Assembly (NCBI GenBank): GCA_944378225.1
Contig: CALWGE010000007.1
Coordinates: forward strand, 1 to 63,390
Length of the DNA: 63,390 bases
Direction of reading: 5' to 3'
DNA from: an uncultured Merdimonas sp.
GTDB lineage: Bacteria; Bacillota; Clostridia; Lachnospirales; Lachnospiraceae
A program made the position numbers and the translations under genes. Shown in pieces: positions 46,252 through 63,390 of the stretch. The notes under the pieces are model-generated. The model was not told the DNA's origin, did not search any database, and worked only from the letters and a program-made list of their open reading frames with translations. The number at the start of each line of letters is the position of its first letter. The first letter of the stretch is position 1.

Positions 46252-46277
46252 ATGATAATATTTTTCAATTATATGTC

Positions 46278-46424: not shown

Positions 46425-46703
46425 ATGAGTATTGTAATTATCGGAGGTCATGACCGTATGGTTCGGCAGTATCATGATATCTGCAAAGCTTACAAATGTA
46501 AGGCAAAAGTTTTTACACAAATGACGGGAGACCTGAAAAGACAGGTAGGAAGACCGGATTTGTTTGTACTGTTTACAAATACAGTATCGCATAAGATGGC
46601 AAAATGTGCGCTGGAAGAGGCAAGGAGAAATAATATTGAAGTCGTACGCAGCCATACCAGCAGCCGGGCGGCGCTGGAAGAAATTCTGGGGAATTACTGC
46701 TGA
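46425..46703 (+). CDS. DUF2325 family protein
   Basis: This 92-residue protein of the DUF2325 family has a Rossmann-like opening (SIVIIGGHDRMVRQYHDICK) and the closing VRSHTSSRAALEEIL. The family is small, cytoplasmic and of unknown function. It is often found near iron- or metal-related genes in Firmicutes, from memory rather than from this sequence. GGAGG at 46410-46414 marks the start. The stop overlaps the next ATG by one base (TGATG), coupling it to the DUF3793 gene. Confidence 0.82.
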   Translation: MSIVIIGGHDRMVRQYHDICKAYKCKAKVFTQMTGDLKRQVGRPDLFVLFTNTVSHKMAKCALEEARRNNIEVVRSHTSSRAALEEILGNYC

Positions 46704-47290: not shown

Positions 47291-47343
47291 AAGCGTTTTC
47301 TATATGAAATAAAATTATAAACAGAAATACAGGAGGATATGAA

Positions 47344-47754
47344 ATGAAAGTAGTATATTGGAGCAGCACAGGAAATACGGAGCAAATGGCCCAGATGCTG
47401 GGTGAGGAATTGGAAAAACTGGGGAATAATGCAGAGGTGGCAGAAGTATCTGCTGTATCGCCGGCCGATCTGGAGAAGGAGAATATTTTTGCTTTGGGAT
47501 GCTCGGCTATGGGTGATGAAGAACTGGACGAGGGGGAAATGGAACCCTTTGTAGAGGAAGTGGAGAAATTTGCAGAAGGCAAAAAGATAGGTCTTTTTGG
47601 GTCTTATGACTGGGGTGACGGCGAGTGGATGCGCAAATGGGAAAAGCGTATGCAGGAGGCAGGAGCAGAAGTTGTGGGAACTGTCATTGCAAACAATGAA
47701 CCAGATGAGGAGGACAGAAAAAAACTGGAAGAACTGGCAAAAAGTCTTATCTGA
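47344..47754 (+). CDS. Flavodoxin
   Basis: This 136-residue short-chain flavodoxin has the FMN phosphate loop SSTGNTEQMA at residues about 7-16 and the FMN-stacking region GSYDWGDGEWM (about 84-94). It is strongly acidic. Flavodoxins replace ferredoxin under iron limitation, which fits the iron-box-like palindromes upstream and the FeoB-associated peptide downstream. AGGAGG precedes the ATG. The length is typical for clostridial flavodoxins. Confidence 0.93.
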   Translation: MKVVYWSSTGNTEQMAQMLGEELEKLGNNAEVAEVSAVSPADLEKENIFALGCSAMGDEELDEGEMEPFVEEVEKFAEGKKIGLFGSYDWGDGEWMRKWEKRMQEAGAEVVGTVIANNEPDEEDRKKLEELAKSLI

Positions 47755-49529: not shown

Positions 49530-49550
49530 AATTCTTTTTAATTTATCCGG

Positions 49551-49588
49551 TGGGGAGGCTTGCGGCATTGTTCCGCTCATGCTAAGAT
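49551..49588 (+). promoter_or_regulatory. promoter of Nik-type operon with shared GGGGAGGCTTGCGG element
   Basis: TTGCGG at 49560-49565 and TAAGAT at 49583-49588 are 17 bp apart. The element GGGGAGGCTTGCGG (49552-49565) recurs at the methyltransferase promoter (54874-54887), with further similarity on both sides. Confidence 0.6.
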
Positions 49589-49627
49589 TCATACATATCA
49601 ACGGCTGAAAACTGTAAAATAGCATTC

Positions 49628-49663
49628 AGAAAGAACTGTGGCTGTATCTGCACAGTTCTTTCT
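49628..49663 (+). other. perfect 13-bp hairpin in nikA leader
   Basis: AGAAAGAACTGTG at 49628-49640 pairs with CACAGTTCTTTCT at 49651-49663. The following bases (GGCGG) are not a T-run, although the 3' arm itself is T-rich. It may be an attenuator or stabiliser; no known nickel or cobalt riboswitch pattern is evident. Confidence 0.6.
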
Positions 49664-49694
49664 GGCGGATATAGAACAATTTCAGGAGGAAGAG

Positions 49695-51281
49695 ATGATG
49701 AATAGAAATAAAAGAAACCGGGCGGCATTACTGCTGCTTTGCATATTGATAACAGCAGGAATTCTTACAGGCTGCGGCGGAAAGAAAGAAGGACAGGCAG
49801 GAACCGACGGTACAGGAACCAAAGAACTGGTGATTGGTACAGGGCAGAGCTGTGGAACTCTGGATTCTCTTCAGGGATATGACGGATGGTATACCGTACG
49901 CTTTGGAATCGGACAGACTCTGACAAAGCTGAATGATGATTTTTCAGTGTCCGGATGGCTGGCAGAGGATGATTATACTGTAAATGAAGATCATACAGTC
50001 TGGACATTTACAGTGCGCAGCGGTGTTACATTTTCAAACGGAACGGAACTGACGGCAGAGCTTGCAAAAGCATCTCTGGAATATACCTGTGAAAACGGAA
50101 TCCGTGCTGCGGAATACTTCACGCCCGTTTCTATAGAAGCAGACGGACAGACGCTGACGATTATTACCGAAAATCCCGAGCCGATTCTGCCGAATAAGCT
50201 TGCAGACCCTTATTTTACTATTATAGATACAACGGCAGATCTGACAGACATCGCAGATAAGGGACCTGTAGGGACAGGCCCGTTTGTACTCTCTTCCTTT
50301 AATCCTACCACAAAAGAAACGGTGGTGGTAAAGAACGAAAATTACTGGGGAGGAGAAGTTCTGCTGGATCAGATTACCTTTATGTATACGGAAGATCAGT
50401 CAACATTGACCATGGGACTTCAGTCAGGGGATTTTGATGCAGTATATAATGTCAGCATGACAAACATAGACGAGTTTTCTGACAATGACAGCTACAGCAT
50501 TGTCAGAACAGCCAGCGGTCGTACTACCCATGGATTCATGAACCAGAACGGTGTGCTGAAAGACGAAACTCTGCGTCAGGCAATCCTGCGCTATATCAAT
50601 AAGGAATCCTATTGTGAACATCTTCTGAATGGCGAGTATGTGGCAGGGAAGACTCTTCTGACTTCGGCTTCTGATTATGGATATGATGAACTGACTGATA
50701 TCAATTCCTACAATCCTGAGAGTGCGGTACAGCTTTTGGATGAGGCTGGTTACCTGGATGTTGACGGGGATGGATTCCGCGAGACACCTTCCGGTGAGAA
50801 GATAAATCTCAGATTCGTCTATTATACGGGACGGCCGGAACAGAAGATTGTGGCTGAGGCTACCCAGATGGAACTGGCACAGCTGGGAATCCGGGTGACT
50901 CCGGAGGTGCATGACACACAGACTGTTATTGATATGCTTGGAAAAGGGGATTATGATATACTCTGTATGAGCATTAACGCGCTGAACTGCGGTGATCCGG
51001 AAAATCATATGAATACCTATTTTAAGACAGGAGGAAGCTATAATGCTTCCGGATATTCCAGCGCAGAATTTGACGCAGTGCTGGATGAACTGACAGTGAC
51101 GGCAGATCCGGAGCAGCGTATGGAACTTGTGAAAGAAGCTGAACAGATACTTCTGGACGACAGTGTCTGTATATATTACTGTTATCCGGTTATGAATTTT
51201 GTGACTAAAAGCAATGTAAGCGGAATTACAAGCACCCCTGCGGATTTCTACTGGGTAAGTGAGAAGACGGATATACAGTAA
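49695..51281 (+). CDS. Nickel/peptide-type ABC transporter binding lipoprotein
   Basis: This protein, about 528 residues, is a family 5 binding lipoprotein with lipobox LTGC. Family features include WTFTVRSGVTFSNG, PVGTGPFVLSSF, KNENYWGG and YNPESAVQLLDEAGY. It is closer in pattern to NikA-like proteins than to oligopeptide OppA, but the ligand may be nickel, cobalt, a metal chelate or a peptide. The start is ATG 49695 or 49698, after AGGAGG at 49684-49689; longer in-frame sequence crosses the leader hairpin. It leads a five-gene importer operon. Confidence 0.85.
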   Translation: MMNRNKRNRAALLLLCILITAGILTGCGGKKEGQAGTDGTGTKELVIGTGQSCGTLDSLQGYDGWYTVRFGIGQTLTKLNDDFSVSGWLAEDDYTVNEDHTVWTFTVRSGVTFSNGTELTAELAKASLEYTCENGIRAAEYFTPVSIEADGQTLTIITENPEPILPNKLADPYFTIIDTTADLTDIADKGPVGTGPFVLSSFNPTTKETVVVKNENYWGGEVLLDQITFMYTEDQSTLTMGLQSGDFDAVYNVSMTNIDEFSDNDSYSIVRTASGRTTHGFMNQNGVLKDETLRQAILRYINKESYCEHLLNGEYVAGKTLLTSASDYGYDELTDINSYNPESAVQLLDEAGYLDVDGDGFRETPSGEKINLRFVYYTGRPEQKIVAEATQMELAQLGIRVTPEVHDTQTVIDMLGKGDYDILCMSINALNCGDPENHMNTYFKTGGSYNASGYSSAEFDAVLDELTVTADPEQRMELVKEAEQILLDDSVCIYYCYPVMNFVTKSNVSGITSTPADFYWVSEKTDIQ

Positions 51282-51313
51282 AGGCAATTCTTGAGACAGA
51301 GGAGAACGAAAAG

Positions 51314-52264
51314 ATGAAGAAACACCATGTGCCGAAGCGTCTTCTTCAGACAGTGATTGTGCTTTTTGGGATCAGTCTTCTCAGCTTTGGTCTGCTTTAC
51401 ATGGCCCCCGGAGATCCGGTTCTGGCCATGTATGAAGCAGGAGGCACGATACCTGACGAGAAAATTGTGAATCAGACACGGGAGGCCCTTGGTCTGAACG
51501 AACCGTTTCTTGTGCAGTATGGAAACTGGCTGAGCAGCTGTTTGAAAGGAGATTTTGGGATATCCTATTCCCTGAACAGACCTGTGGGCGAACTGATACT
51601 GTCGAGGCTGTGGCCCACACTGAAGCTGGCGTTTTTATCTCTTGCGCTGATGCTGCTGGTGTCCGTGCCGCTTGGGATGACTGCGGCGGTGCACAAAGGA
51701 GGCATCGCGGATTATATAGTCCGTTTTTTTACCTTTCTTGGAGTATCTCTGCCGAATTTCTGGGTGGGTCTGATTCTTCTGTATGTTTTTGCAGTAAAGC
51801 TGGAAATTCTTCCCGTAATTTCATCAGGTCAGGGTTTTGACAGACTGATTCTGCCAGCGGTTACGCTGGCTTTTGCCATGACAGGGAAGTATACAAGGCA
51901 GGTGAGAGCAGCCTTCCTGGAAGAACTGAATCAGGATTATGTGACAGGAGCCCGATGCAGAGGAATCCCTGACCGGGTGATTCTCTGGAGGCATGTGCTG
52001 CCCAATGCGGTACTGCCTCTTATTACGCTTCTGGGGCTGTCCATGGGCTCTCTTCTTGGAGGAACGGCTGTGGCAGAGGTGATTTTTTCTTATCCGGGGC
52101 TGGGAAGCCTGACGGTGGATGCGATCAGTTCTATGGATTATTCGCTGATTCAGGGATGCGTTCTGTGGATTGCGCTGATCTATATGCTGCTCAATCTTCT
52201 GGTAGATATTTCTTATGCGTTTCTGGATCCCAGGCTGAAAGAGGAGGCGGACAGACAGTGGTAA
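51314..52264 (+). CDS. ABC transporter permease, NikB/DppB type
   Basis: This 316-residue permease has six membrane helices and a long first loop. The conserved segments are GDFGISYSLNRPV, LGVSLPNFWVG and the EAA loop DYVTGARCRGIPDRVILWRHVLPNA. It pairs with the next permease to form the channel of the importer. AGGAGA-type bases precede the ATG. The gene overlaps the second permease gene by 7 nt. Confidence 0.9.
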   Translation: MKKHHVPKRLLQTVIVLFGISLLSFGLLYMAPGDPVLAMYEAGGTIPDEKIVNQTREALGLNEPFLVQYGNWLSSCLKGDFGISYSLNRPVGELILSRLWPTLKLAFLSLALMLLVSVPLGMTAAVHKGGIADYIVRFFTFLGVSLPNFWVGLILLYVFAVKLEILPVISSGQGFDRLILPAVTLAFAMTGKYTRQVRAAFLEELNQDYVTGARCRGIPDRVILWRHVLPNAVLPLITLLGLSMGSLLGGTAVAEVIFSYPGLGSLTVDAISSMDYSLIQGCVLWIALIYMLLNLLVDISYAFLDPRLKEEADRQW

Positions 52265-53085
52265 AATTAATTGCGTTTGTGAAAAAAAATCCGGCTTTTT
52301 CCGTGTTTGCCCTGCTGGCTGCTGGCCTGATTGCAACGGCTGTCTGCGCTCCGCTTCTGGCTGCACAGGATCCTTATACTGCGGTTATGTCGGAAGCTCT
52401 GCAGCCGCCGGGACCGGAACACTGGTTTGGGACGGACTGGCTGGGCCGTGATCTGTATTCCAGGATTCTGTATGGTGCAAGAACTTCTCTGACGGCAGTC
52501 TTTTGCCTGACTGGCGTGATTATGGCAGCGGGGGCTTTCCTGGGAATTACTGCAGGCTGGTGCGGCGGAGTGATTGACGCAGTGATTATGCGGATTTCTG
52601 ATATCATGATCTCCTTTCCGGGTATGGTGCTGGCAATGGCGGCGGCCGGAATTATGGGAGCCAGTATGAAAAATGCGGTGGCGGCCATTGCTATTGTGAG
52701 CTGGACAAAGTATGCCCGTCTGGCAAGAAGCCTGACACTGCAGATTCGGAATCAGGATTATATCGCAGCCGCCAGAGTTACAGGTTCCAGAACTCCGCAT
52801 ATTTTGTGGCGTTATGTGCTGCCCAATGCCATACCTGCAGTTCTTATTACCGGGGCAACGGATATCGGAACTATGATGATGGAAATTGCAGGTCTGTCTT
52901 TCCTTGGGTTTGGCGCTGTTCCTCCTGCAGCGGAATGGGGGAGCATGCTGAGTGAGGGGAGAGTTTACATGACGACAGCTCCCTGGCTGATGCTGTTTCC
53001 GGGACTTGCGATCTTTATTGCCGTAATGATTTTGAATCTTCTGGGGGACAGTCTGCGGGATGTTCTGGATCCGAGAGAAGAATAG
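52258..53085 (+). CDS. ABC transporter permease, NikC/DppC type
   Basis: This protein, about 275 residues, is the second permease, with six helices. It has HWFGTDWLGRDLYSRILYGARTSL near the first loop and the EAA loop DYIAAARVTGSRTPHILWRYVLPN. The preferred start is GTG 52258, 9 nt after GAGGAGG and overlapping the previous stop; longer in-frame sequence lies within the NikB-type gene. It ends with the typical GDSLRDVLDPR. Confidence 0.9.
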   Translation: MVKLIAFVKKNPAFSVFALLAAGLIATAVCAPLLAAQDPYTAVMSEALQPPGPEHWFGTDWLGRDLYSRILYGARTSLTAVFCLTGVIMAAGAFLGITAGWCGGVIDAVIMRISDIMISFPGMVLAMAAAGIMGASMKNAVAAIAIVSWTKYARLARSLTLQIRNQDYIAAARVTGSRTPHILWRYVLPNAIPAVLITGATDIGTMMMEIAGLSFLGFGAVPPAAEWGSMLSEGRVYMTTAPWLMLFPGLAIFIAVMILNLLGDSLRDVLDPREE

Positions 53086-53108
53086 GCATGGCGGCAGGAG
53101 GTGATTTC

Positions 53109-53897
53109 ATGCTGAGTATACAGAATCTTTCTGTGAAATATGGAAAAAATGCTGTTCCTGCGGTTCAGGGAATCCATCTGGAAATGAAACAGGGGGAGAT
53201 TGTCAGCATTGTAGGGGAAAGCGGAAGCGGAAAAACAACACTGCTGCGTGCCATCATGGGTTGCCTGCCAGGCTCCGGTTATGTGGCCGGGGGAAACATC
53301 CGGTTTGGTGATCAGTCTTTGGCAGATCTGAGCCCGGAAGAATGGAGAAATCTGAGAGGGACAGAACTTTCCATGATTTTTCAGGATTCCGGAGCAATGC
53401 TCAATCCTGTACGGCGGATTGGTTCTCAGTATGTGGAATATATCTGTATGCATCAGAGGCAGGAAAAAAAGAAGGCCTGGAAACAGGCGACAGAGATGCT
53501 GGAAAAAATGCATCTGACAGATGCCGACAGAGTTATGCGAAGTTATCCCTTTCAGCTTTCAGGAGGTATGCGTCAGAGAGTAGGGATTGCTATGGCTATG
53601 ACCTTTCAGCCCCGGCTTTTGCTGGCAGATGAACCTACCAGCTCACTGGATGTGACTACGCAGTCCCAGATTGTGGCGCAGATGCTGGAACTGCGGGAAA
53701 AGTATGGAACAGGAATTCTTCTGGTAACTCATAACCTGGGCACGGCAGTCTGTATGGCGGACAGAATTATTGTGATGCATGACGGTCATTTTGCGGATGC
53801 GGGAACCCGTGAGGAAATTCTGAATGGTCCGGTCAGTGACTATACGAGAAAACTGCTTGAAAGTGTGCCGGCAATGGGAGGTGAGCGGTTTGTCTGA
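53109..53897 (+). CDS. ABC transporter ATPase, NikD/DppD type
   Basis: This protein, about 262 residues, is an ATPase with GESGSGKTTL (Walker A), FQDSGAMLNPVRRI (Q-loop), LSGGMRQRVGIAMAM and ADEPTSSLDVT (signature and Walker B). It is shorter than DppD (about 330 residues) and lacks the C-terminal Cys-containing peptide-transporter extension, as NikD does. The start is ATG 53109 after AGGAGGTGA; an earlier ATG at 53088 sits before the SD. It works with the following ATPase as a heterodimer. Confidence 0.9.
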   Translation: MLSIQNLSVKYGKNAVPAVQGIHLEMKQGEIVSIVGESGSGKTTLLRAIMGCLPGSGYVAGGNIRFGDQSLADLSPEEWRNLRGTELSMIFQDSGAMLNPVRRIGSQYVEYICMHQRQEKKKAWKQATEMLEKMHLTDADRVMRSYPFQLSGGMRQRVGIAMAMTFQPRLLLADEPTSSLDVTTQSQIVAQMLELREKYGTGILLVTHNLGTAVCMADRIIVMHDGHFADAGTREEILNGPVSDYTRKLLESVPAMGGERFV

Positions 53898-54846
53898 GAC
53901 AGATGAAGTGATACTGGAGGCAAGGCATATCACGAAAACATATCCGGCGCCCAATCACAGAATACTGAAAGTGAACAATGATATCAGTCTGAAATTTTAC
54001 AGAGGGAAAACGCTGGGAATCATAGGCGAGAGCGGTTGTGGAAAAAGTACTCTTATGCGTGTTCTGATGGCTTTGGAAAGGCCTACAGAAGGTCAGATTC
54101 TGTATAGAGGGCAGGATGTGACAAAGCTCAAGGGCGAAAAACTGCGCTGTCACAGGCAGAAAATCCAGATGGTTTTCCAGGATCCGTCTGCAGCTTTCAG
54201 TCCCAGAATGCGGGTTATGGATATCGTATGTGAACCTTTGCTCAACTTTAAACGGATTCGGAAGAGAGATAAGGAAGAAACGGCCCGGAGACTTTTGCAA
54301 ATGGTTGAACTGCCCGGGGATTTTGTTTGGCGTTATCCGCATAATATGAGCGGAGGAGAGAGACAGAGGGTTGGTATTGCCAGAGCCCTGGCGCTGGAGC
54401 CGGAGCTTGTCATCTGTGACGAGGCTACCTCATCTCTGGATGTATCTGTGCAGAAAACTGTTATGGAGCTTCTGGCGAGGCTGCAGAAAGAAAAGCAGAT
54501 TGCGTACGGATTTGTCAGCCATGATATTGCACTGGTACAGGCTGCTGCCCATCAGGCAGCCGTCATGTATTCGGGAAATGTGGTGGAGATTCTGCCGGGA
54601 GAAAAGCTGGGGGGTTCCTGCCTGCATCCTTATACAGAGGAACTGGCGGACTCTGCTTTTGATTTTAAAAAAGATTTCCGCAATTTTTCGCCGGTTGTAA
54701 AAAGAGATTCCGCAGATGACGCCGTTTTTCTGCCTGGCTGTCCGTTCCAGAACCGATGCAGCCGGTGCATGGAAATCTGCAGAAAAAAGAGACCGGAGTT
54801 AAAGACGGTAGAGAGAGAGCATCAGGTTGCCTGTCATCTTTATTAA
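53890..54846 (+). CDS. ABC transporter ATPase, NikE/DppF type
   Basis: This protein, about 318 residues, is an ATPase with GESGCGKSTL, FQDPSAAFSPRMRV, MSGGERQRVGIARAL and CDEATSSLDVS. A C-terminal Cys-rich extension (PGCPFQNRCSRCMEICRK) of the type that holds an iron-sulfur site in some Opp/Dpp ATPases follows. The start is probably TTG 53890, 8 nt after GGAGG and overlapping the previous gene by 8 nt. It closes the five-gene importer; the next gene has a separate promoter. Confidence 0.88.
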   Translation: MSETDEVILEARHITKTYPAPNHRILKVNNDISLKFYRGKTLGIIGESGCGKSTLMRVLMALERPTEGQILYRGQDVTKLKGEKLRCHRQKIQMVFQDPSAAFSPRMRVMDIVCEPLLNFKRIRKRDKEETARRLLQMVELPGDFVWRYPHNMSGGERQRVGIARALALEPELVICDEATSSLDVSVQKTVMELLARLQKEKQIAYGFVSHDIALVQAAAHQAAVMYSGNVVEILPGEKLGGSCLHPYTEELADSAFDFKKDFRNFSPVVKRDSADDAVFLPGCPFQNRCSRCMEICRKKRPELKTVEREHQVACHLY

Positions 54847-54873
54847 ATAAAGGTCTTGTAATTCATATCCCCA

Positions 54874-54911
54874 GGGGAGGCTTGCGGGCATTTCCTGGGG
54901 TATGCTATACT
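54874..54911 (+). promoter_or_regulatory. methyltransferase operon promoter with shared GGGGAGGCTTGCGG element
   Basis: TTGCGG at 54882-54887 and TATACT at 54906-54911 are 18 bp apart. The arms CCCCAGG (54869-54875) and CCTGGGG (54894-54900) flank the -35. The shared element lies at 54874-54887. Confidence 0.65.
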
Positions 54912-54951
54912 CCATTCGAAATTAAGTGATAACGGATGGAGTGACAGATAT

Positions 54952-55710
54952 ATGGGCAGAATGCTGGGACGCATACAGCAGTATTGGACAAATCGTGCGG
55001 AAGGATATTCGAAAGTAAATCAGGAAGAGCTGGCGGGCGAACAGAAAAACAGGTGGCTTCGTGTTCTGGAGGCGGAATTTCCTCAAAATAAGCCGGAAGA
55101 GCTTCGGGTTCTGGATATCGGAACAGGTCCGGGTTTTTTTGCTATTATTCTGGCCCGTGCAGGATACCAGGTGACAGCTGTAGATTACACAGAGGAGATG
55201 CTCTGCAAGGCCAGAGAGAATGCAGGTCTCTACGCAGAACGTATCTGCTGGAAACAGATGGATGCTCAGAAACTGGAGTTTCCGGACAACCAGTTTGACG
55301 TGGTGGTTTCCAGAAATCTGACCTGGACTCTGGAGGAGCCGGACAGGGCTTACCAGGAGTGGAGAAGAGTTCTGAAAAAAGGGGGGCTTCTTCTGAATTT
55401 TGATGCAAACTGGTATGGACATCTGTTTGACAAAGAAAAGCGCCGGGAATATGAGGAAGACCGCAGGAATGTGGAGAAACTCCGGCTGGAAGATCACTAT
55501 ACCGGCACGGATATTGATGAGATGGAGTGTATAGCCAGACAGGTGCCCTTAAGTCCGGTGGTGCGGCCGGCATGGGATGTACAGATACTGAAAAGTGCAG
55601 GCTTTCAGAATGTCCGTACAGATGAGTCTGTATGGCAGAAGGTGTGGAGCGAGACAGAAAAGATAAACTATGCTTCCACTCCGATGTTTCTGATAAAGGC
55701 GGTGAAATGA
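54952..55710 (+). CDS. Class I SAM-dependent methyltransferase (tandem copy 1)
   Basis: This 252-residue methyltransferase has a Rossmann fold. Its SAM motif is VLDIGTGPGFFAIILARAG (about 52-70), with VDYTEEML after it, FDVVVSRNLTWTLEEPDRAYQEW (motif IV region) and LKKGGLLLNFDANW. The substrate is unknown. The C-terminal region (RPAWDVQIL, NYASTPMFLIKAVK) is shared with the next gene, so the two are duplicates. It is the first gene of a run that leads into a FecCD-type importer. The stop overlaps the next start by 4 nt. Confidence 0.9.
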   Translation: MGRMLGRIQQYWTNRAEGYSKVNQEELAGEQKNRWLRVLEAEFPQNKPEELRVLDIGTGPGFFAIILARAGYQVTAVDYTEEMLCKARENAGLYAERICWKQMDAQKLEFPDNQFDVVVSRNLTWTLEEPDRAYQEWRRVLKKGGLLLNFDANWYGHLFDKEKRREYEEDRRNVEKLRLEDHYTGTDIDEMECIARQVPLSPVVRPAWDVQILKSAGFQNVRTDESVWQKVWSETEKINYASTPMFLIKAVK

Positions 55711-56432
55711 TGGAAGCAATTAAGGAAAGGGTATCTTCCTACTGGACTGTAAGAAGTGCAGATTTTGCAAAACTTCGTGAGGAAGAGCTGGAAAGTGAAC
55801 CGGCAGGTCTCTGGCTTTCTGAGATTGAGCCTCAGCTGCCGTTGGGCAGAAAACTTCGGATTCTGGATGTGGGTACAGGAAGCGGATATTTTTCAGTGCT
55901 TCTGGCAGGCAAGGGACATCAGGTGACAGGAATCGATCTGACGCCGGCTATGATAGAGGAAGCCAAAAAGCTGGCTGCCGAGCATCAGACAGAAGCGGAA
56001 TTTCTTGTGATGGACGCGGAAAATCTTGAATTTGCAGATGAGTCCTTCGATGCAGTGGTTTCCAGAAATCTGACATGGACGCTGCCTCATCCGGAACGGG
56101 CCTATCAGGAGTGGCTGCGGGTGCTGAAGCCGGGAGGCGTTCTTCTGAATTTTGACGCAGATTATGGTCTGGAACGTTTTTCCTGTGAGAAAGGTCTCCC
56201 GGAGAATCATGCGCACAGGCAGATGAGCGGCAGCCAGCTGGAAGAATGTGACGCCATTAAGGATCAGCTTTTCATCAGTCAGGAGAGACGTCCTGCATGG
56301 GATCTGGAGCTGTTGAAGGAGCTTGGCTGCAGTCAGGCACAGGCGGATACCAGAGTGTCGGAGCGGGTATACAGAAAAGAAAGCAGTTATTATAATCCTA
56401 CGCCTCTGTTTCGGGTTCGGGCAGTGAAATAA
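55707..56432 (+). CDS. Class I SAM-dependent methyltransferase (tandem copy 2)
   Basis: This protein, about 241 residues, is a methyltransferase with SAM motif ILDVGTGSGYFSVLLAGKG and IDLTPAM. Like its neighbour it has VVSRNLTWTLPHPERAYQEW and NPTPLFRVRAVK. The identical core SRNLTWTL and shared ends show a tandem duplication with later divergence. The start is ATG 55707 or 55710 (ATGATG), overlapping the previous stop; in-frame sequence to 55632 lies inside the previous gene. Both may act on the same molecule, perhaps a metal chelator, but this is conjecture. Confidence 0.9.
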   Translation: MMEAIKERVSSYWTVRSADFAKLREEELESEPAGLWLSEIEPQLPLGRKLRILDVGTGSGYFSVLLAGKGHQVTGIDLTPAMIEEAKKLAAEHQTEAEFLVMDAENLEFADESFDAVVSRNLTWTLPHPERAYQEWLRVLKPGGVLLNFDADYGLERFSCEKGLPENHAHRQMSGSQLEECDAIKDQLFISQERRPAWDLELLKELGCSQAQADTRVSERVYRKESSYYNPTPLFRVRAVK

Positions 56433-56488
56433 AAAGGATAACGGGAAGCAGTATCCCGCAGAAACAGGAAGAACTAAAAAAGGGGATA

Positions 56489-57607
56489 ATGAAAATGGCA
56501 GGAAAGAGATTAATGACTTGTCTGCTGGCTTTCTGTCTGCTGGCAGTTTCCGGGTGCGGAAAGCAGACAGCAGAGAAAGCGGATCCGGCAGTTTCCGGAA
56601 CAGATACGGAAGATACACGGGTTATGACAGATGGTACGAATCGCGAGGTGGAGATCCCTGCAAAAGTAGACAGCATTGTATGCCTGAATGTGGGAGCGCT
56701 CCGCTATACCTGTTACATGCAGGCTCAGGATCTGGTAACCGGCGTGGAGGATTATGAAAAAGAGCAGTCTATTTCCAGAGGATACAATTATGTAAATTAC
56801 GATCAGTTTGCGGATCTTCCGGTTGTGGGAAACAATGGCACCCATTATGCGGAAGAGATTATCGCTGTGGATCCGGATGTAATTGTGCTGGCTTCCCATG
56901 ACGCAAAAGAAGCAGATCAGCTGCAGACTACCACAGGGATCCCGGTGGTAACCGTTCCTGGCAGTGATACTACCATGGATGAGGATGCGTATGAGACTCT
57001 GCGGCTCATGGGAGAACTCTATGGAAAAGAAGAGCGTGCGCAGGAATTGACAGATTATCTGGACAGTATCAGAGCAGATCTGGAGAAGAGGACGGCAGGA
57101 GTACCGGATGAGGAGAAGCCCACCGTCTATGTGGGAGGAGTAAGCTACAAAGGAGCTCATGGCTTCGAAGGGACGGAAAGCGGGTATGGACCTTTTGCTC
57201 TGATTGGAGCGAAAAATCTGGCGGATGAAAACGGGACGGCAGGAGCCTATGACATTGATCCGGAACAGGTTCTTGCCTGGGATCCGGACATCATTTTTCT
57301 GGATTACAACGGACTGGATCTGATTAACGAGGACTATGCATCCAATCCGGCTTTTTATGAACAGCTTACTGCCGTACAGGAAGGAAGAGTGTATGCGCAG
57401 ATTTCCTTCCGCTCCAGCGCCGCAAATCTTGACACGGCTCTGGCAGATACCTATTATGCGGCGTCTGTTCTGTATCCGGAACAGTTTGCGGATATCGACA
57501 TAGAAGAGAAGGCGGCAGAAATTTTTGAAAAACTGCTGGGAACGAATTTTTACGAGGACCTGAAGGCAAATGGATATGAATTCAGAGAAATTACCTTTGG
57601 AGAATAG
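56489..57607 (+). CDS. Iron-siderophore/corrinoid-type ABC binding lipoprotein
   Basis: This 372-residue lipoprotein has lipobox AVSGC and a type III (BtuF/FhuD) binding fold: MTDGTNREVEIPAKVDSIVCLNVGALRY, EEIIAVDPDVIVLASHD, and a long middle helix. The ligand could be a siderophore, a corrinoid or a metal complex. AAGGGG precedes the ATG. It overlaps the permease gene by 38 nt if that gene starts at 57570. Together with the next two genes it forms a complete FecCD-class importer. Confidence 0.9.
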   Translation: MKMAGKRLMTCLLAFCLLAVSGCGKQTAEKADPAVSGTDTEDTRVMTDGTNREVEIPAKVDSIVCLNVGALRYTCYMQAQDLVTGVEDYEKEQSISRGYNYVNYDQFADLPVVGNNGTHYAEEIIAVDPDVIVLASHDAKEADQLQTTTGIPVVTVPGSDTTMDEDAYETLRLMGELYGKEERAQELTDYLDSIRADLEKRTAGVPDEEKPTVYVGGVSYKGAHGFEGTESGYGPFALIGAKNLADENGTAGAYDIDPEQVLAWDPDIIFLDYNGLDLINEDYASNPAFYEQLTAVQEGRVYAQISFRSSAANLDTALADTYYAASVLYPEQFADIDIEEKAAEIFEKLLGTNFYEDLKANGYEFREITFGE

Positions 57608-58664
57608 AGCAGAATATCATATGGAAGAGCATGGAAGGGATTCCCTGTACTGCAGGAACCAGCGGCGCAGTGTGGCCTTTCTCATTCTTCTGGCAGTAAT
57701 TCTCCTGGTTTCTGCAGTGTTATCCCTCTGGGCAGGTTCTTATGAGACACCTGTGGGAGAACTGCTGCGGGGAATCTTTGGACAGGCATCTGATGAAAAA
57801 ATTAATATTGTGGTGCGCAATGTACGTCTGCCTCGGATCTGCACAGCAGCGGCGGCGGGGGCAGGGCTTGGCGTCACAGGCTGCATCCTTCAGGCCATTC
57901 TGAACAATCCTCTGGCATCGGCCTCTACTCTGGGAGTATCCCAGGGGGCAGGCTTTGGAGCAGCTTTTGCCATCATCATACTGGGAGCAGGAGCTTCAGG
58001 AAGCGGTATCGGAGTTTCTCTCTGCGCCTTTGTGGGAAGTATGGGGGTTGCCGCAGTAATTTTCGCACTGTCCAGATTCCGCCAGGTTTCCGCTGAATCC
58101 ATTATACTGGCAGGCGTGGCCATCAGTTCCATGTTTACGGGAGCCACGACGCTTCTTCAGTATTTTGCTGACGAGGTGGAACTGGCAACCCTGGTGTTCT
58201 GGACTTTTGGAGACCTGGGAAGCACCACCTGGACGGAAATCCGGTTTATGGCAGTGATTGTACTGGCTGCTTCCCTGTATTTTCTGTTTCACCGCTGGGA
58301 TTACAATGCTCTTCAGAGTGGTACAGAGACAGCCATCAGCCTGGGCGTCCGTGTGCGCAGACTGATGATTGTCAATATGCTGGTCTGTTGTTTTACAGCA
58401 TCCACCATTGTATCCTACATTGGTCTCATCAATTTTATCGGTCTGGTAGCGCCCCATATCGTACGCATGGTGGTGGGAAACAACCATGTTTATCTGATCC
58501 CCGGTTCCTTTCTGGCAGGAGCATCGCTTCTGCTTCTGGGAGATTTATTGGCAAGGACCATAGCGAGCCCCGTGATTCTTCCTATCGGAGCCATTACCTC
58601 TTTTCTGGGGGCGCCGCTGTTCCTGTACCTCTTGTTTAAAGGAGGAAAGCAGAAATGTTCATAG
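57570..58664 (+). CDS. FecCD-type ABC transporter permease
   Basis: This permease, about 364 residues with about ten helices, belongs to the BtuC/FecCD family. Typical segments are VRLPRICTAAAAGAGLGVTGC, LNNPLASASTLGVSQGAGFGA, and the late GLINFIGLVAPHIVRMVVGNNH that meets the ATPase. A single permease implies a homodimer. The start is not firm: ATG 57570 lies inside the previous gene with only a short AAGG site, while ATG 57621 would give 347 residues. It overlaps the ATPase gene by 10 nt. Confidence 0.9.
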   Translation: MDMNSEKLPLENRAEYHMEEHGRDSLYCRNQRRSVAFLILLAVILLVSAVLSLWAGSYETPVGELLRGIFGQASDEKINIVVRNVRLPRICTAAAAGAGLGVTGCILQAILNNPLASASTLGVSQGAGFGAAFAIIILGAGASGSGIGVSLCAFVGSMGVAAVIFALSRFRQVSAESIILAGVAISSMFTGATTLLQYFADEVELATLVFWTFGDLGSTTWTEIRFMAVIVLAASLYFLFHRWDYNALQSGTETAISLGVRVRRLMIVNMLVCCFTASTIVSYIGLINFIGLVAPHIVRMVVGNNHVYLIPGSFLAGASLLLLGDLLARTIASPVILPIGAITSFLGAPLFLYLLFKGGKQKCS

Positions 58665-59425
58665 TGGAAGATCTGCAGTTTCATTATCAGGGCGGCCCCC
58701 GTGTGCTGAAGAAGATCAATTTTACTCTGGGAGACGGAGAATTTCTGGCGATTCTGGGAAATAACGGAGTGGGAAAAAGCACCATGCTCAAATGCTTTAA
58801 CCGGATTATTTCACCGGATGCGGGGCGTGTGCTTCTGAACGGGGAGGATCTTCTGAAGATGCCCCTTCGCCAGGTAGCAAAACGCATTGCCTTTGTGGCT
58901 CAGAATGTGCCGAATACTCAGATGACGGTTCATGATATGGTGATGCTTGGGCGCAGACCCTATATGCGCTGGGGATTTACGGAGCATGACCATGAGCTGG
59001 TGCACAGAGCCATGGACCGGCTGAGGGTATCGGAGTTTCGGGGACGCTTTCTGAACCAGCTGAGCGGCGGTGAGAGACAGAAGGTTATGCTGGCCCGCGC
59101 CCTGGCCCAGGAGCCGAAGCTTCTGCTTCTGGATGAGCCTACCAGCAGCCTGGATCTGAAAAATCAGTACCAGGTGCTTCAGATTGTAAAAGATATCTGT
59201 CATGAGACGGGAATTTCAGCCATTGTGGTGATTCATGACCTGAATCTGGCCCTGCGTTTCTGCGATCGGTTCCTTCTGATGCAGGAGGGAGAGGTGTACC
59301 GGTATGGAGAAATGGATATTCTGGATCGGGAAGCGCTTCTGAATGTCTATGGAGTCAAAGGTGAAGTGCGCACCGTCGGAAATCAGAAAATGGTGCTGGT
59401 GGATGAGGAGGAAGAGTGGCTGTGA
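58655..59425 (+). CDS. FecE/BtuD-type ABC transporter ATPase
   Basis: This 256-residue ATPase has LGNNGVGKSTMLKC (Walker A), AQNVPNTQMTVHDMVMLGRRPYM, LSGGERQKVMLARALAQ and LLLDEPTSSLDLKNQ, plus IHDLNLALRFCDRF with the switch His. It fits iron-chelate or corrinoid importers. GGAGG lies a few bases upstream. The end overlaps the third methyltransferase gene by 10 nt, a strong sign that transporter and methyltransferase are used together. Confidence 0.93.
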   Translation: MFIVEDLQFHYQGGPRVLKKINFTLGDGEFLAILGNNGVGKSTMLKCFNRIISPDAGRVLLNGEDLLKMPLRQVAKRIAFVAQNVPNTQMTVHDMVMLGRRPYMRWGFTEHDHELVHRAMDRLRVSEFRGRFLNQLSGGERQKVMLARALAQEPKLLLLDEPTSSLDLKNQYQVLQIVKDICHETGISAIVVIHDLNLALRFCDRFLLMQEGEVYRYGEMDILDREALLNVYGVKGEVRTVGNQKMVLVDEEEEWL

Positions 59426-60240
59426 CTCTGGAAGAACTGAAAGACAGCTGGAAAAATCAGAATCCTGAAAGCGGTAAGATTCAGGAAAAAATCTGGGATG
59501 AGCGGGCAGCGGATTTCGAAGTCAGGGAGGTCCCTTCAGCAGAAAACAATGAGTTTCTTCGGTATCTGTATGCAAAGGCACGGCCGGACAGAAACATGTC
59601 CGTGCTGGACATTGGCTGCGGAGGCGGAAAATATGCTCTGGCTCTTTCCGGTGATGTCTGCGAGGCTGTGGGGACGGATGTTTCCGGAAACATGGTGGAG
59701 GCAGCCAGACGCTCTGCGCTGCAGAAGCAGATACTGAATGTACGGTTTCTGAAGGAAGACTGGCAGACAGCGGACATTGATGCTCTCGGTTTTCGGGAAC
59801 GGTTTGACCTGGTCTTTGCGCATATGACACCGGCAGTGTGCGATTTCGTTACCCTGGAAAAAATGGATGCCTGCGCAAAAAAACAGTGTTTTCTGGTGAA
59901 GCCGGCCAGACGGGAAGACACCGTTCAGGATGCGGCTTTCGCCCGGGCGGGCATCAGCAGCCGGAAGCAGGAACTTGACGATACGGTTGCGAATATTTTT
60001 TCCTGGCTGTGGCTGAAGGGATATGAGCCGGAGATTTCTTACCGGAAGGAAGAGTGGACGCATGTGCGTTCTCTGGAAAGTATGAAGAACTGGTGCGTGA
60101 ACCGTGCAAGACTCGGGAAGGAACTGACGGAAGCGGAGGAAAAGAATATTCTTTGGTATCTGCAGGAAATCAGCCGGGACGGAATGATTGAAGACAGAAC
60201 GCGAACCACCATTGTAACAATATATTGGAAGAAACCGTAG
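59416..60240 (+). CDS. SAM-dependent methyltransferase (third, transporter-linked)
   Basis: This 274-residue methyltransferase has SAM motif VLDIGCGGGKYALAL (about 63-77), TDVSGNMVEAA, and a long helical C-terminal part (SYRKEEWTHVRSLESMKNW). It is not a close copy of the two upstream methyltransferases; the VSRNLTWTL block is missing, replaced by FDLVFAHMTPAVCDF. The start is GTG 59416 or 59422, with GAGGAG just upstream. Its overlap with the ATPase gene and the FmdE gene 31 nt downstream suggest a role tied to the imported compound. Confidence 0.87.
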   Translation: MAVTLEELKDSWKNQNPESGKIQEKIWDERAADFEVREVPSAENNEFLRYLYAKARPDRNMSVLDIGCGGGKYALALSGDVCEAVGTDVSGNMVEAARRSALQKQILNVRFLKEDWQTADIDALGFRERFDLVFAHMTPAVCDFVTLEKMDACAKKQCFLVKPARREDTVQDAAFARAGISSRKQELDDTVANIFSWLWLKGYEPEISYRKEEWTHVRSLESMKNWCVNRARLGKELTEAEEKNILWYLQEISRDGMIEDRTRTTIVTIYWKKP

Positions 60241-60271
60241 TAAAAAACACAGGAAGAAAGGAAGCAGAAAC

Positions 60272-60832
60272 ATGCTGGAACAGGAATTGTGGGAAACATG
60301 CGCGGCTTTTCATGGACATGAATGCGGAGGATTGACGATAGGATACAAGGCGTCTCTCTATGCCATAGATCTGCTGGGACTGGAGACAGAGAAGGGAAAA
60401 GCCGGGAAAGGCTGTTTTTCTTCTGATGAGGAGCTGGTCTGTATCTGTGAAAATGATGCCTGTGGGGTGGACGCAATCCAGGTGATCCTGGGATGCAGTA
60501 TCGGAAAGGGAAATCTGCTGTTTCATATAACAGGAAAGCAGGCTTTTTCCTTTTACAGCAGAAAGACCGGAAAATCTGTGCGCCTGGTCTTAAAGCCCAG
60601 ACCGCAGGGGATGACAAAGGAAGAATCCTTCCGGTATTATCAGGCCAGCAGGCCGGAGGAGATGTTTGAGGTAAAGGAGACAAAGCAGAAGCTCCCTGAA
60701 CCGGCAAGAATTTTCAAATCTATCTGCTGCAGCCGCTGCGGCGAGAGCACAGCAGAACACCTGATCCGTCTTCATGGGGATGAGATGCTGTGTCTGGATT
60801 GTTATCAGGCCTATAACCGGTTCGATGTGTAA
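60272..60832 (+). CDS. FmdE family protein with zinc ribbon
   Basis: This 186-residue FmdE/FwdE-family protein has the N-terminal signature FHGHECGGLTIGYKA (His14, His16, Cys18), then CENDACGVDAIQVILGCSIGKGNL. A C-terminal zinc ribbon follows (CSRCGE and CLDC, about 151-179). The name comes from a subunit of molybdenum formylmethanofuran dehydrogenase, but most bacterial members sit beside metal transporters and have no known activity. No other formylmethanofuran gene is present. It is the last gene of the methyltransferase-importer run; the metQ promoter begins 7 bp after it. Confidence 0.9.
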   Translation: MLEQELWETCAAFHGHECGGLTIGYKASLYAIDLLGLETEKGKAGKGCFSSDEELVCICENDACGVDAIQVILGCSIGKGNLLFHITGKQAFSFYSRKTGKSVRLVLKPRPQGMTKEESFRYYQASRPEEMFEVKETKQKLPEPARIFKSICCSRCGESTAEHLIRLHGDEMLCLDCYQAYNRFDV

Positions 60833-60917: not shown

Positions 60918-60947
60918 TGTGGCTTAGAGAATGGAGGAAAGAGTATT

Positions 60948-61811
60948 ATGAAAAGGTTTGTGAAGAAACTGACATCCCTTGCTGTCTGCCTTACAGTGGC
61001 TGCTTCACTTGCAGCCTGCGGAGGCGGAAAGAAAGGAATCCAGATTGCGGTGCCCAATGACACAACAAATGAAGCCCGCGCGCTGATGCTTCTGCAGGAA
61101 CTGGGATATATCACACTGAAAGACGGAGCGGGAATTACCGCGACAGTCATGGATATCGCAGAGAATCCGTATGACATTTCTTTTAATGAAGTTGAGGCAG
61201 CTCAGCTTCCCAATGTGCTTCAGGATATGGATTACGCAGTGATTAACTCCAATTATGCCATCGATGCCGGCTTAAATCCCATGGAGGACGCTCTTGCAAT
61301 TGAAGGTTCATTTTCTGCTTACGGTAATGTACTTGCGGTGAAGGAAGGAAATGAGAACAATGATAATATCAAAGCTCTCAAAGCAGCGCTGGAGAGCCAG
61401 CAGGTAGCTGATTTTATTCTGGAAGAGTATGGCGGAGATGTGGTAAGCACAGTGGATAACCCTACAGATGGTTATGATGCCTCTGTGGACTATGATGCTC
61501 TGGCGGGCACTACCATTACAGTAGCGGCTTCCCCGGCTCCTCATGCGGAGATCCTTCAGGTGGCAAAAGAGATTCTGGCAGCAAAGGATATTACGCTGGA
61601 TATCATGGAGTTTACAGACTATGTACAGCCTAATAACGTAGTAGATACCGGAGAGGTGGATGCAAATTATTTCCAGCATCAGCCGTATCTGGATGATTTC
61701 AATGCGGAGAACGGAACTCATGTGGTATCTGTAGCTACCATTCATGTGGAGCCTATGGGTATCTATGGAGGCAAGCAGTCTTCTCTGGATGCAATTACAG
61801 AGGGAAAATAG
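60948..61811 (+). CDS. metQ: Methionine ABC transporter binding lipoprotein
   Basis: This protein, about 287 residues, is a NlpA/MetQ-family lipoprotein with lipobox LAAC near residue 24. The binding domain contains IAVPNDTTNEARALMLLQELGYI, DISFNEVEAAQLPNVLQDMDYAVINSNYA and the late VDANYFQHQPYLDDFN. It binds D- or L-methionine for the MetNI importer encoded next. The start is ATG 60948 after GGAGGAAA; in-frame sequence to 60774 runs through the promoter and leader hairpin. A hairpin terminator separates it from metN. Confidence 0.92.
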   Translation: MKRFVKKLTSLAVCLTVAASLAACGGGKKGIQIAVPNDTTNEARALMLLQELGYITLKDGAGITATVMDIAENPYDISFNEVEAAQLPNVLQDMDYAVINSNYAIDAGLNPMEDALAIEGSFSAYGNVLAVKEGNENNDNIKALKAALESQQVADFILEEYGGDVVSTVDNPTDGYDASVDYDALAGTTITVAASPAPHAEILQVAKEILAAKDITLDIMEFTDYVQPNNVVDTGEVDANYFQHQPYLDDFNAENGTHVVSVATIHVEPMGIYGGKQSSLDAITEGK

Positions 61812-61845
61812 GCAGCAGGCAGTTAAAGAAAACATAAGACAGGAG

Positions 61846-61878
61846 GGGCGCCGTGAACAGTCTTTTCGGCGCCCTTTT
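61846..61878 (+). terminator. intercistronic terminator between metQ and metN
   Basis: Arms GGGCGCCG and CGGCGCCC (61846-61853 and 61867-61874) are followed by TTTTAT. It probably lowers metNI expression relative to metQ. Confidence 0.8.
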
Positions 61879-61892
61879 ATCCGGAGGAAGTT

Positions 61893-62903
61893 ATGATAGA
61901 AATCAAAAATCTGTCCAAGGAGTTCCAGACAGCAGATGGAACGGTAGAGGCACTGAAGGATGTGAATCTTACGATTGGGGACGGGGAGATTTATGGCATT
62001 ATCGGTATGAGCGGAGCGGGAAAGAGTACGCTGGTTCGCTGTATCAATATGCTCGAGCGGCCCACAGAAGGCCAGGTTCTGATAGACGGTCAGGATATCG
62101 GAGCTCTGTCCACGGCAGAGCTTCGCAAGGCGCGCCGGGAGATTACAATGATATTTCAGGGATTTAACCTGCTGATGCAGCGTACCTGCCTGAAGAATAT
62201 CTGTTTCCCGCTGGAACTGGCAGGAGTAAATAAGACAGAGGCCAGGAAGCGGGCCATGGAGCTTCTCGAGATCGTGGGTCTTCCCGATAAGGCAAACGCC
62301 TATCCTGCTCAGCTGTCCGGCGGTCAGCAGCAGAGAATCGCCATTGCAAGAGCTCTGGCGACAGAGCCGAAGGTTCTGCTCTGCGATGAGGCCACCAGCG
62401 CTCTGGACCCGAAGACAACCCATGCCATTCTGGAGCTGATTCGTGATATCAACCGGAGACTGGGGATTTCCGTTATCATCATTACTCACCAGATGAGTGT
62501 TGTGGAGGAGATCTGCAGCCGTGTGGCAATTCTGGATGAGGGCCGTGTGGTGGAAGAAGGACTGGTCAGTGAGATTTTTTCCAGCCCGAAATCGAAGGCT
62601 GCGAAACGGCTGGTATTTCCGGAGGGGGCAGACGAGATTCTTCTGGAAACCAGGGGTGAGAGGCGTATCCGTGTAGTATTCAGCGGAGCGGTAGCTTCCA
62701 GGGAGCCTTTGATTGCGAAGATGGCTATGGAAGAGAAGATTGCGGCAAGCATTCTGGGCGCATCCACCAGAAGCATCGGGGATAAAGCCTATGGAAATAT
62801 GCTGCTTGGAATTACCGGGGATGACGATACTGTGCGCCGTGCCATAGATTATCTGCGCAGCATTCCGGACGTTCTGGTTGAGGAGGTGACCGATCATGTT
62901 TGA
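61893..62903 (+). CDS. metN: Methionine ABC transporter ATP-binding protein
   Basis: This 336-residue ATPase has GMSGAGKSTLVRCINMLERP (Walker A), FQGFNLLMQRT, LSGGQQQRIAIARALA and CDEATSALDPKTT. A C-terminal NIL domain (about 255-336) follows; in MetN it binds methionine and shuts transport at high internal methionine. GGAGG precedes the ATG. The end overlaps metI by 8 nt. Confidence 0.95.
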   Translation: MIEIKNLSKEFQTADGTVEALKDVNLTIGDGEIYGIIGMSGAGKSTLVRCINMLERPTEGQVLIDGQDIGALSTAELRKARREITMIFQGFNLLMQRTCLKNICFPLELAGVNKTEARKRAMELLEIVGLPDKANAYPAQLSGGQQQRIAIARALATEPKVLLCDEATSALDPKTTHAILELIRDINRRLGISVIIITHQMSVVEEICSRVAILDEGRVVEEGLVSEIFSSPKSKAAKRLVFPEGADEILLETRGERRIRVVFSGAVASREPLIAKMAMEEKIAASILGASTRSIGDKAYGNMLLGITGDDDTVRRAIDYLRSIPDVLVEEVTDHV

Positions 62904-63390
62904 GAAACTGCTGTCTTCTGAGATAGTGCAGGAAACCCTTTGGATCGTACAGAGCGAATTTCCGCTGGCGATCTGGGAGACGATATATGTGACAGTCCTT
63001 GCTACGGCGCTGGCGATTGTAATCGGTCTGCCGCTGGGCGTGCTTCTGGTGGCAGGAGAGAAGAATGGTGTGCTTCCCCTTCCCAAACCGTTCATGCATG
63101 TACTGAATGTGGTAATTAATCTTCTGCGTTCGGTGCCTTTTCTGATATTGATGATTATGGTGTTCCCGCTGTCCAGACTGATTGTGGGTACTGCTGTTGG
63201 AACTGTGGCTTCGATTGTTCCTCTGGTGATTGCGGCCTTTCCGTTTGTGGCCCGCCTGGTGGAGAGCAGCCTCAGGGAGGTAAATCCGAATATCATCGAG
63301 ATGGCCCAGAGTATGGGAGCTTCTCCTTTCCAGATCATCATAAAGGTGATGATTCCGGAGAGCTTGCCGTCTCTGCTTTCGAACTTTACC
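62896..63390 (+). CDS. metI: Methionine ABC transporter permease (partial)
   Basis: The first 165 residues of MetI are present; the gene runs off the end of the window. At least three or four membrane helices are seen. The conserved LRSVPFLILMIM and the EAA loop (REVNPNIIEMAQSMGASPFQIIIKVMIPE) are complete. AGGAGGTGA at 62881-62889 lies 6 nt before the ATG, and the start overlaps the metN end, so both are translationally coupled. It forms the membrane channel for methionine. Confidence 0.93.
   Translation, partial: MFEKLLSSEIVQETLWIVQSEFPLAIWETIYVTVLATALAIVIGLPLGVLLVAGEKNGVLPLPKPFMHVLNVVINLLRSVPFLILMIMVFPLSRLIVGTAVGTVASIVPLVIAAFPFVARLVESSLREVNPNIIEMAQSMGASPFQIIIKVMIPESLPSLLSNFT

Follow-up and report, generated by a model that had tools for sequence, protein, structure and literature searches.

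A candidate nickel-acquisition island of importers, methyltransferases and FmdE in a Lachnospiraceae genome

The stretch analysed here, referred to as the window, is one whole contig of 63,390 nucleotides (CALWGE010000007.1) from the 2.85-Mb, 138-contig assembly GCA_944378225.1 (94% complete) of an uncultured Merdimonas sp., whose closest named relatives by FmdE similarity are Merdimonas metagenome-assembled genomes (MAGs) and Lachnoclostridium An131. Toward its end lies an island of genes for two ATP-binding cassette (ABC) importers, three methyltransferases (MT1, MT2 and MT3) and an FmdE protein. We propose, with a probability of roughly 0.55, that this island belongs to a regulon for acquiring nickel or, less likely, cobalt, with cytosolic ligand processing and metal handover through FmdE. 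A preliminary description made from the letters alone had listed its genes in order; all eleven were found, all on the forward strand and as closely packed as it stated.

Gene content of the island

The genes and the two copies of a shared promoter-operator-like element are listed below (SBP, substrate-binding protein; SAM, S-adenosylmethionine).

49544–49588, +, promoter-operator-like element upstream of OppA; weaker copy with left arm CCGG, 3 mismatches to the pattern from the copy at 54869
49698–51281, +, OppA/NikA-like SBP; SBP_bac_5, lipobox by eye
51314–52264, +, OppB/NikB-like permease; NCBIfam Opp2B 380.9 bits, cut-off 350
52252–53085, +, OppC/NikC-like permease; NCBIfam Opp2C 312.3 bits, cut-off 300
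53088–53897, +, OppD/NikD-like ATPase; profile matches
53887–54846, +, OppF/NikE-like ATPase; profile match
54866–54911, +, promoter-operator-like element upstream of MT1; TATCCCCAGGGGAGGCTTGCGGG...TATACT, with inverted repeat ATCCCCAGG/CCTGGGGTAT
54952–55710, +, MT1, class I SAM-dependent methyltransferase; Methyltransf_11, 1.5e-25
55710–56432, +, MT2, paralogue of MT1 (41%); methyltransferase domain above Pfam cut-off
56489–57607, +, BtuF/FecB-type SBP; Peripla_BP_2, PDB 2etv at E 1.5e-80, lipobox by eye
57570–58664, +, FecCD/BtuC permease, single gene; FecCD, 2e-84
58655–59425, +, BtuD-type ATPase; profile matches
59416–60240, +, MT3, diverged methyltransferase with GTG start; Methyltransf_31, 1.2e-13
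60272–60832, +, FmdE protein; 115.3 bits, Pfam gathering score 22.9

Spacings are 32, −13, 2 and −11 bp from OppA through OppB, OppC and OppD to OppF; 105, −1 and 56 bp for OppF–MT1, MT1–MT2 and MT2–BtuF; and −38, −10, −10 and 31 bp from BtuF through FecCD, BtuD and MT3 to FmdE. Since a predicted promoter-operator element lies in the OppF–MT1 gap, the genes from MT1 onward may have their own promoter. An Rfam search of the window at the gathering score returned one tRNA and no other family. Below, module A denotes an MT1/MT2-type methyltransferase with a Nik/Opp importer, and module B denotes FmdE with BtuF/FecCD/BtuD (BtuFCD), with or without MT3; loci and genomes used for comparison carry L and G numbers.

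Importer A consists of a family-5 SBP, two permeases and two ATPases in one operon. Its OppB and OppC exceed the curated NCBIfam cut-offs for the nickel permeases Opp2B and Opp2C, and the 10 PDB matches of OppA at E≤1e-25 are nickel-binding proteins (NikA, SaNikA) or, in one case, an unnamed chain aligning like SaNikA, the best being 3t66 (4.6e-54). Because the SBP falls under the curated NikA cut-offs (Opp5A_nikA, 292.5 of 600; TIGR02294, 158.6 of 393), importer A is Nik-like and not a curated NikA equivalog. OppA also has no histidine at the position aligned with the nickel ligand of Escherichia coli NikA, His416. Together, the permease and structural matches suggest a nickel-type importer, for which transport of nickel is predicted.

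In a Proteus mirabilis record (L171), a relative of MT1 (51% identity) stands directly before a NikA-Opp1B-Opp1C-D-E operon, whose NikA is of the same broad family as OppA of the window and scores 624 bits against TIGR02294 (cut-off 393). Nik and Ynt are reported as the sole nickel importers serving urease in P. mirabilis (review, PMC11026637), and Ynt adjoins hyf (PMC10745698). Since hyf was not recognised in L171, we take its operon to be Nik by context, not by locus tag. Control by NikR was rejected: no site with ≤2 mismatches occurs in the island, and the closest candidate ahead of the P. mirabilis operon differs at 4 positions.

Importer B is a full BtuCDF/FecCD-type set of a Peripla_BP_2 SBP, a FecCD permease and an ATPase, and the match of its BtuF to 2etv covers residues 49–359 of 372. 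B12 import by this transporter was rejected, as the BtuC equivalog model gave 219.3 of 334 bits. In the adjoining FmdE, the metal-site residues of the N-terminal domain (H14, H16, C18 and C64) are kept in 50–51 of 51 aligned sequences and the zinc-ribbon cysteines (C153, C156, C174 and C177) in 48–50. The PF02663 proteins 2glz, 2gvi and 3d00 have the same N-terminal His-x-His-x-Cys...Cys site and C-terminal zinc ribbon; specifically, the Zn/Ni ligands of 2glz, which held mixed Zn/Ni (His15, His17, Cys19 and Cys55; PMC2954224), align with H14, H16, C18 and C64. Axelrod et al. report that the majority of genes of this family adjoin genes for metal-ion transporters (PMC2954224). In contrast to described members, FmdE of the window is in an operon with BtuFCD (in four relatives, FmdE is joined by lar genes) and not in an fmd operon, and no formylmethanofuran dehydrogenase or molybdenum genes were recognised around it in the 46–63 kb region.

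FmdE also occurs in other settings. A second recurrent context, identified by eye, comprises NifX-type, DUF134-type and Mrp/CooC-type ATPase genes (L014, 445–7178; L122, 5244–8270; L131, 5473–10132). An Acetoanaerobium FmdE (L172) is a counter-example, with neither BtuFCD nor Opp among the open reading frames (ORFs) listed, and a distant one (28%) on a Citrobacter freundii plasmid (L175) lies between TauE/SafE-family genes, a separate setting of the family on enterobacterial plasmids.

The methyltransferase domains of MT1, MT2 and MT3 all exceed Pfam cut-offs. MT1 and MT2 share 41% identity, whereas MT3 is far more distant (29% over ~90 residues). Arg121, Asp151, Arg205 and Asp209 are kept in 31–32 of 32 MT1/MT2 sequences, and such charged residues would suit a zwitterionic or carboxylate ligand. 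Genes of the MT1 family travel with three types of ABC transporter: Opp, BtuFCD (L111) and paired half-ABC proteins (importer or exporter), one clade of the latter also having an energy-coupling factor (ECF) S component. In L113 and L115–L117, the MT1 relative belongs to a conserved cluster in which a MATE-like protein, an ECF S component of the MptD family and an ECF ATPase accompany two half-ABC transporters. No importer was recognised at the MT loci L100, L105, L107 and L110; a Selenomonas plasmid relative (L174) is likewise a counter-example, with none among 18 annotated features, and a Sinorhizobium plasmid relative (L173; 34% identity to MT2) lies near BtuF/BtuD-like ORFs.

In L019 (PF24827 confirmed) and L168 (by BLAST), MT2 carries a fused deacylase domain of the AspA/AstE type, and free-standing genes of this type occur in L099, L112 and L024. 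Because of the fusion in two genomes, we consider the imported chelator to be the probable substrate of the methyltransferases. Corrinoid methylation, which the preliminary description had offered alongside chelator methylation, gained no direct support, and identity of MT1–MT3 with the corrinoid-acting CpaM was rejected (model match of 65.6 bits, cut-off 180). In Lachnoclostridium An131 (L024, 5021–6180), the AspA/AstE-type gene and what appears by eye to be a truncated MATE gene are found between OppA and BtuF.

The same enzymes might instead serve metallophore biosynthesis. Staphylopine is made by CntKLM, exported by CntE and imported by CntABCDF, and resembles the present case in that an Opp-type importer is linked to small SAM-using enzymes; by analogy, MT1 and MT2, with AspA, would build a methylated chelator that is exported and then re-imported as a metal complex. 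MATE genes near 5 of 26 MT loci and paired half-ABC genes near 7 of 26, four of these loci being near copies of one cluster, would fit this scheme, as would the matches of OppA, OppC and OppD to staphylopine Cnt models, which remain below cut-off. On the other hand, the window has methyltransferases in place of the Cnt enzymes, and no nicotianamine synthase (CntL-type, PF03059) was matched in its genome by a search that was positive in 1 of 14 control genomes. Moreover, 18 of the 26 MT loci, the window included, lack a MATE or half-ABC gene within 6 kb, the distance used for all neighbour counts, and no exporter was recognised in the Proteus locus; a one-enzyme metallophore without an exporter is less economical. 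We regard this route as the main alternative, albeit an unlikely one.

The metal

Nickel is the likeliest metal and cobalt the second. The genes larB, larC and larE of the nickel-pincer nucleotide pathway are contiguous with FmdE at four loci: larE-larB-larC in L033 (where the contig ends within larC) and L041 (4706–8545, Intestinimonas butyriciproducens An565), larE-larB in L038, and larE-larB-larC-BtuF-FecCD-BtuD-FmdE in L121 (384–6848). BtuFCD accompanies them in L033, L038 and L121, not in L041. In L020, moreover, hypA/hypB are found no more than 6 kb from FmdE-BtuFCD. Its conserved metal ligands and these lar and hyp links suggest that FmdE is a nickel handler acting between importer and cofactor assembly. 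Unlike in the lar-linked relatives, larB and larC of the window's genome are on another contig (C2). This genome has LarC, LarB and CbiC, and searches of it for HypA and MoaC returned no match.

Associations with marker genes were examined in a class scan of 291 genomes drawn evenly (E cut-offs 1e-35 for MT1 and 1e-8 for FmdE), in which MT1 was found in 17 and FmdE in 24; with the window's own genome left out, 290 remained, and the Fisher tests applied ignore phylogeny and genome size. LarC was present in 20 of 23 genomes with FmdE and 98 of 267 without (odds ratio (OR) 11.5, p 2.7e-6). The ORs of FmdE with MoaC (6.1), CbiC (4.7) and HypA (3.3) were lower, though those with MoaC and CbiC weigh against the nickel reading, and in a joint logistic model of the four markers only the bootstrap interval of LarC excluded zero. 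LarC also occurred in 18 of 24 further genomes chosen for FmdE, i.e. 24 of the 28 from a family scan and a scan of genome contigs (L025, L027, L034 and L039 were left out).

Cobalt, or a cobalamin precursor, might be taken up in place of nickel, at least by module A, since the tie of MT1-Opp to CbiC (8/9 vs 63/281, OR 27.7) exceeds that to LarC (8/9 vs 110/281, OR 12.4) and the window's genome has CbiC. Cobalamin riboswitches are found at L099, L104 and L129: the one in L099 precedes CsoR-AspA, and in L104 an apparent CbiMNQO set (by eye) behind the riboswitch lies beside MT1-Opp. Furthermore, NikABCDE genes of C. tetani and D. hafniense are reported to follow predicted B12 riboswitches (PMC2667541). 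Against this stand the lack of a cobalamin riboswitch in the window at the gathering threshold, the links of module B to lar and hyp genes, and the P. mirabilis MT1 relative heading an operon of the NikA family. A single importer may also serve both metals, as is the case for NiuBDE (PMC5140060). Overall, cobalt as the principal metal seems rather improbable, slightly more so than the metallophore route. Of the metals named by the preliminary description, then, nickel and cobalt held as candidates for an uptake island, in this order, whereas molybdenum or tungsten is unlikely because no MoaC was found.

Linkage and common control of the two modules

MT1-Opp and FmdE-FecCD linkage is real and more than chance. 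In the class scan, Opp genes lay near MT1 at 10 of 20 loci, and FecCD/BtuF lay near FmdE at 14 of 20, compared with 1 of 20 moaC control loci in either case. The MT1 regions covered 24 of 25 places outside the window's own genome (G262:C18 was left out), the FmdE loci 20 of 28 such places, and the controls 20 of 61 moaC places. The FmdE loci had Opp in 2 of 20 and MT3 in 5 of 20. The family-scan FmdE loci were more varied, with FecCD near 2 and Opp near 3 of 10, while among 20 loci from the contig scan FecCD was near 16, Opp near 3, MT3 near 3 and MT1/2 near 2. As several loci are near copies (L113 with L115–L117, L023 with L025, L031 with L032), independent cases are fewer than counted.

By contrast, the two modules shared none of the 20 MT1 loci and none of the 20 FmdE loci, and the five other class-scan genomes holding both always keep them at separate places. 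The modules adjoin each other in the window, are interleaved in L024 and stand divergently in L042, and in L019 FmdE stands directly before MT1-MT2-Opp. MT1 was found in 5 of the 24 FmdE-chosen genomes, beside FmdE in L019, L024 and L042 and on another contig in G082 and G093. Thus, the recurrent partnership of importers with methyltransferases and FmdE, as foreseen in the preliminary description, was supported, whereas its single fixed system of nine to eleven genes was not: with the modules usually unlinked in relatives, one obligate operon is refuted. The other half of its test concerned the conditions to which the modules respond, and where these can be read, the same element before both points to common control. 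The single operon is a local arrangement; where both modules occur, one regulon is more likely than one operon.

The element has the consensus TATCCCCC-N5-GG-CTTG(T/C)G-N17-TATAAT, with a GC-tract abutting the −35 box. The distance from the first T to CTTG is 15 bases in 21 of 23 typed sites, and the spacer is 17–18 bp in 22 of 23; typing omitted the weak window copy, L042:6601, L112:7535 and the duplicates L025 and L031 or L032. The 73 loci scanned (1,227,391 bases, with the window among them) contained 32 matches to a regular expression leaving the distance to CTTG free (1 to 9 plus 0 to 3 bases); in 24 cases the match lay ≤400 bp ahead of a core gene: OppA (4), MT1 (5), MT2 (1), BtuF (10), MT3 (2), FmdE (1) or AspA (1). 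Three further matches (L026, L029 and L099) plausibly belong. There were 0 matches in 372,653 bases of moaC control loci and 0–4 in each of eight Markov resamplings, an enrichment that is not blind because the motif was first spotted by eye and the expression then tuned on those sites. L042 has two copies before module B and one before module A; L112 has one before AspA and another before OppA. At least one copy occurs at 12 of 16 FmdE-FecCD loci from the contig scan, and one is found at an MT1 locus without Opp (L105). The common element stands before both modules at some of the loci, which makes a single regulon likely in those cases.

The element resembles the G-tract pseudopalindromic operators reported for the CsoR family (PMC3902906), a family with both Ni/Co-sensing and Cu-sensing members (PMC5016687). 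Three loci have a CsoR/RcnR-family gene whose product carries a His-rich N-terminus: in L098 it immediately precedes OppA, in L126 it is placed two genes ahead of FmdE, and in L099 it comes before AspA. The proteins of L098 (module A) and L126 (module B) are 77% identical. The L126 protein scores 50.2 of 175 bits against the copper-sensor model RicR, and its residues do not decide the metal. No gene of this family was recognised in the window. A CsoR-family protein is possibly the regulator of the element, and we treat it as a lead.

Two or three independent uptake operons side by side, with the methyltransferases and FmdE as unrelated passengers, would account for the separate loci of modules A and B in the five class-scan genomes. 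It would also account for the 19 of 24 FmdE-chosen genomes without an MT1 match, which indicate that module B works without A, and for L023, a MAG that has module B alone between the same flanks (Dac, MetQN) and no MT1 match in its genome. It is harder to reconcile with a common promoter-operator element on both modules, three different arrangements in the window, L024 and L042, closely similar CsoR genes heading either module, and linkage of MT-Opp and FmdE-FecCD far above control; we hold it to be improbable.

We rate uptake of an iron chelate (xenosiderophore or heme) a shade lower still. The closest solved relative of BtuF, 2etv, is named a putative iron(III)-binding protein, FmdE is beside feoB in L018, and a flavodoxin gene with genes that we take to be DUF2325-like and DUF3793-like lies upstream of the island (46425–47754), where a Fur-box-like site with 2 mismatches occurs at 46253. 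Fur regulation of the island itself was rejected, since no Fur-box match with ≤3 mismatches was found between 46267 and 63143, which spans it; the lar/hyp links and the Nik-type OppA also argue against iron. The upstream genes and their Fur-box-like site look like an iron-limitation set in their own right. Comparable surroundings were seen in L018 (feoB-DUF2325-FmdE) and L023 (flavodoxin and feoB upstream).

Uptake of molybdenum or tungsten, suggested by the name FmdE, by its association with MoaC and by 13 PF02663 genes reported as co-transcribed with formylmethanofuran dehydrogenase genes (PMC2954224), is very improbable. Barring molybdopterin genes in the portion of the genome that the assembly lacks, it is largely refuted here, as no MoaC was matched in a genome that is 94% complete, the tie of FmdE to LarC is stronger, and the joint model gives an interval for MoaC that spans zero.

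Proposed route and relation to known systems

In the nickel-acquisition regulon that we favour, the Nik/Opp-type and BtuCDF-type importers would bring in the metal, probably in chelated form. In the cytosol, MT1 and MT2 would methylate the Opp ligand and MT3 the BtuF ligand, and in some relatives the AspA/AstE-type deacylase may work on the same ligand. Such modification would release the metal and prevent the spent ligand from re-binding it. FmdE, as a putative chaperone, would capture the metal so released at its His-x-His-x-Cys...Cys site and pass it on to nickel-cofactor maturation (LarC, HypA/B). Both modules would be co-regulated through the GC-tract operator overlapping the −35 box, possibly bound by a CsoR-family regulator.

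A more specific version of this proposal is a new route of metal release, in which a donor atom of the chelator is methylated by the SAM-dependent enzymes linked to the importers, and an AspA-type amidohydrolase cuts the chelator, so that nickel release is irreversible. It further casts FmdE proteins as nickel chaperones to LarC/HypA and the GC-tract operator as common to several clostridial families, with a relative of the methyltransferase heading the Proteus Nik operon. We advance this version tentatively, as more doubtful than the general one; its new part is the predicted chemistry of the methyltransferases.

Several findings weigh against the proposal, in addition to the cobalt associations and the autonomy of module B described above. 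Relatives of MT1 with ECF and half-ABC genes occur in four genomes without a LarC match (G295, G354, G380 and G393), so this enzyme family is not nickel-only. The window's MT genes have no MATE or half-ABC partner within 6 kb, and a search of its genome for AspA, run without a positive control, gave no match. A uniform role of FmdE is questioned by copies adjoining iron/oxygen genes (feoB in L018, desulfoferrodoxin in L019) or hemerythrin-type and rubrerythrin-type genes named by eye. As for common control, five of the 32 element matches look like chance, and in the class scan the element was present at only 3 of 10 MT1-Opp loci (L098, L099 and L112) and 2 of 14 FmdE-FecCD loci (L119 and L126). 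CsoR genes are scarce (3 of 57 test loci, namely L098, L099 and L126, vs 0 of 20 control loci), and CsoR/RcnR/InrS proteins are de-repressed by metal, which would be odd for an uptake operon.

Among known systems, the NikABCDE/Opp nickel importers (E. coli NikA, SaNikA, P. mirabilis Nik) share with module A the five-gene architecture and the nickel-type SBP and permeases. The window differs in its two downstream methyltransferases, the unconserved position of His416, an SBP under the NikA cut-offs and the lack of a NikR-like site. The PDB matches of BtuF include binding proteins of the enterochelin type, and NiuBDE of Helicobacter pylori presumably belongs to the same BtuCDF/CeuE-like class. 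By its description, NiuBDE is likewise an ABC importer for nickel, besides cobalt and bismuth (PMC5140060); importer B differs in being coupled to FmdE and MT3. In titles and abstract openings of open-licence PMC papers, none of the matches listed connects Nik operons with methyltransferases of this kind, or lar genes with FmdE.

On the freeing of nickel from an imported chelate and the role of FmdE proteins, the present analysis gives a testable assignment in which FmdE-BtuFCD would form a nickel module for the nickel-pincer cofactor, a methyltransferase family travelling with ABC transporters of three architectures, and a DNA element usable to define the regulon. Directly after FmdE, the window ends in a MetQ-MetN-MetI-like methionine importer (60945–63390), which would feed SAM to the three methyltransferases; because the same flank is present in L023 and L024, we read it as probable synteny and not as methyl-donor supply.

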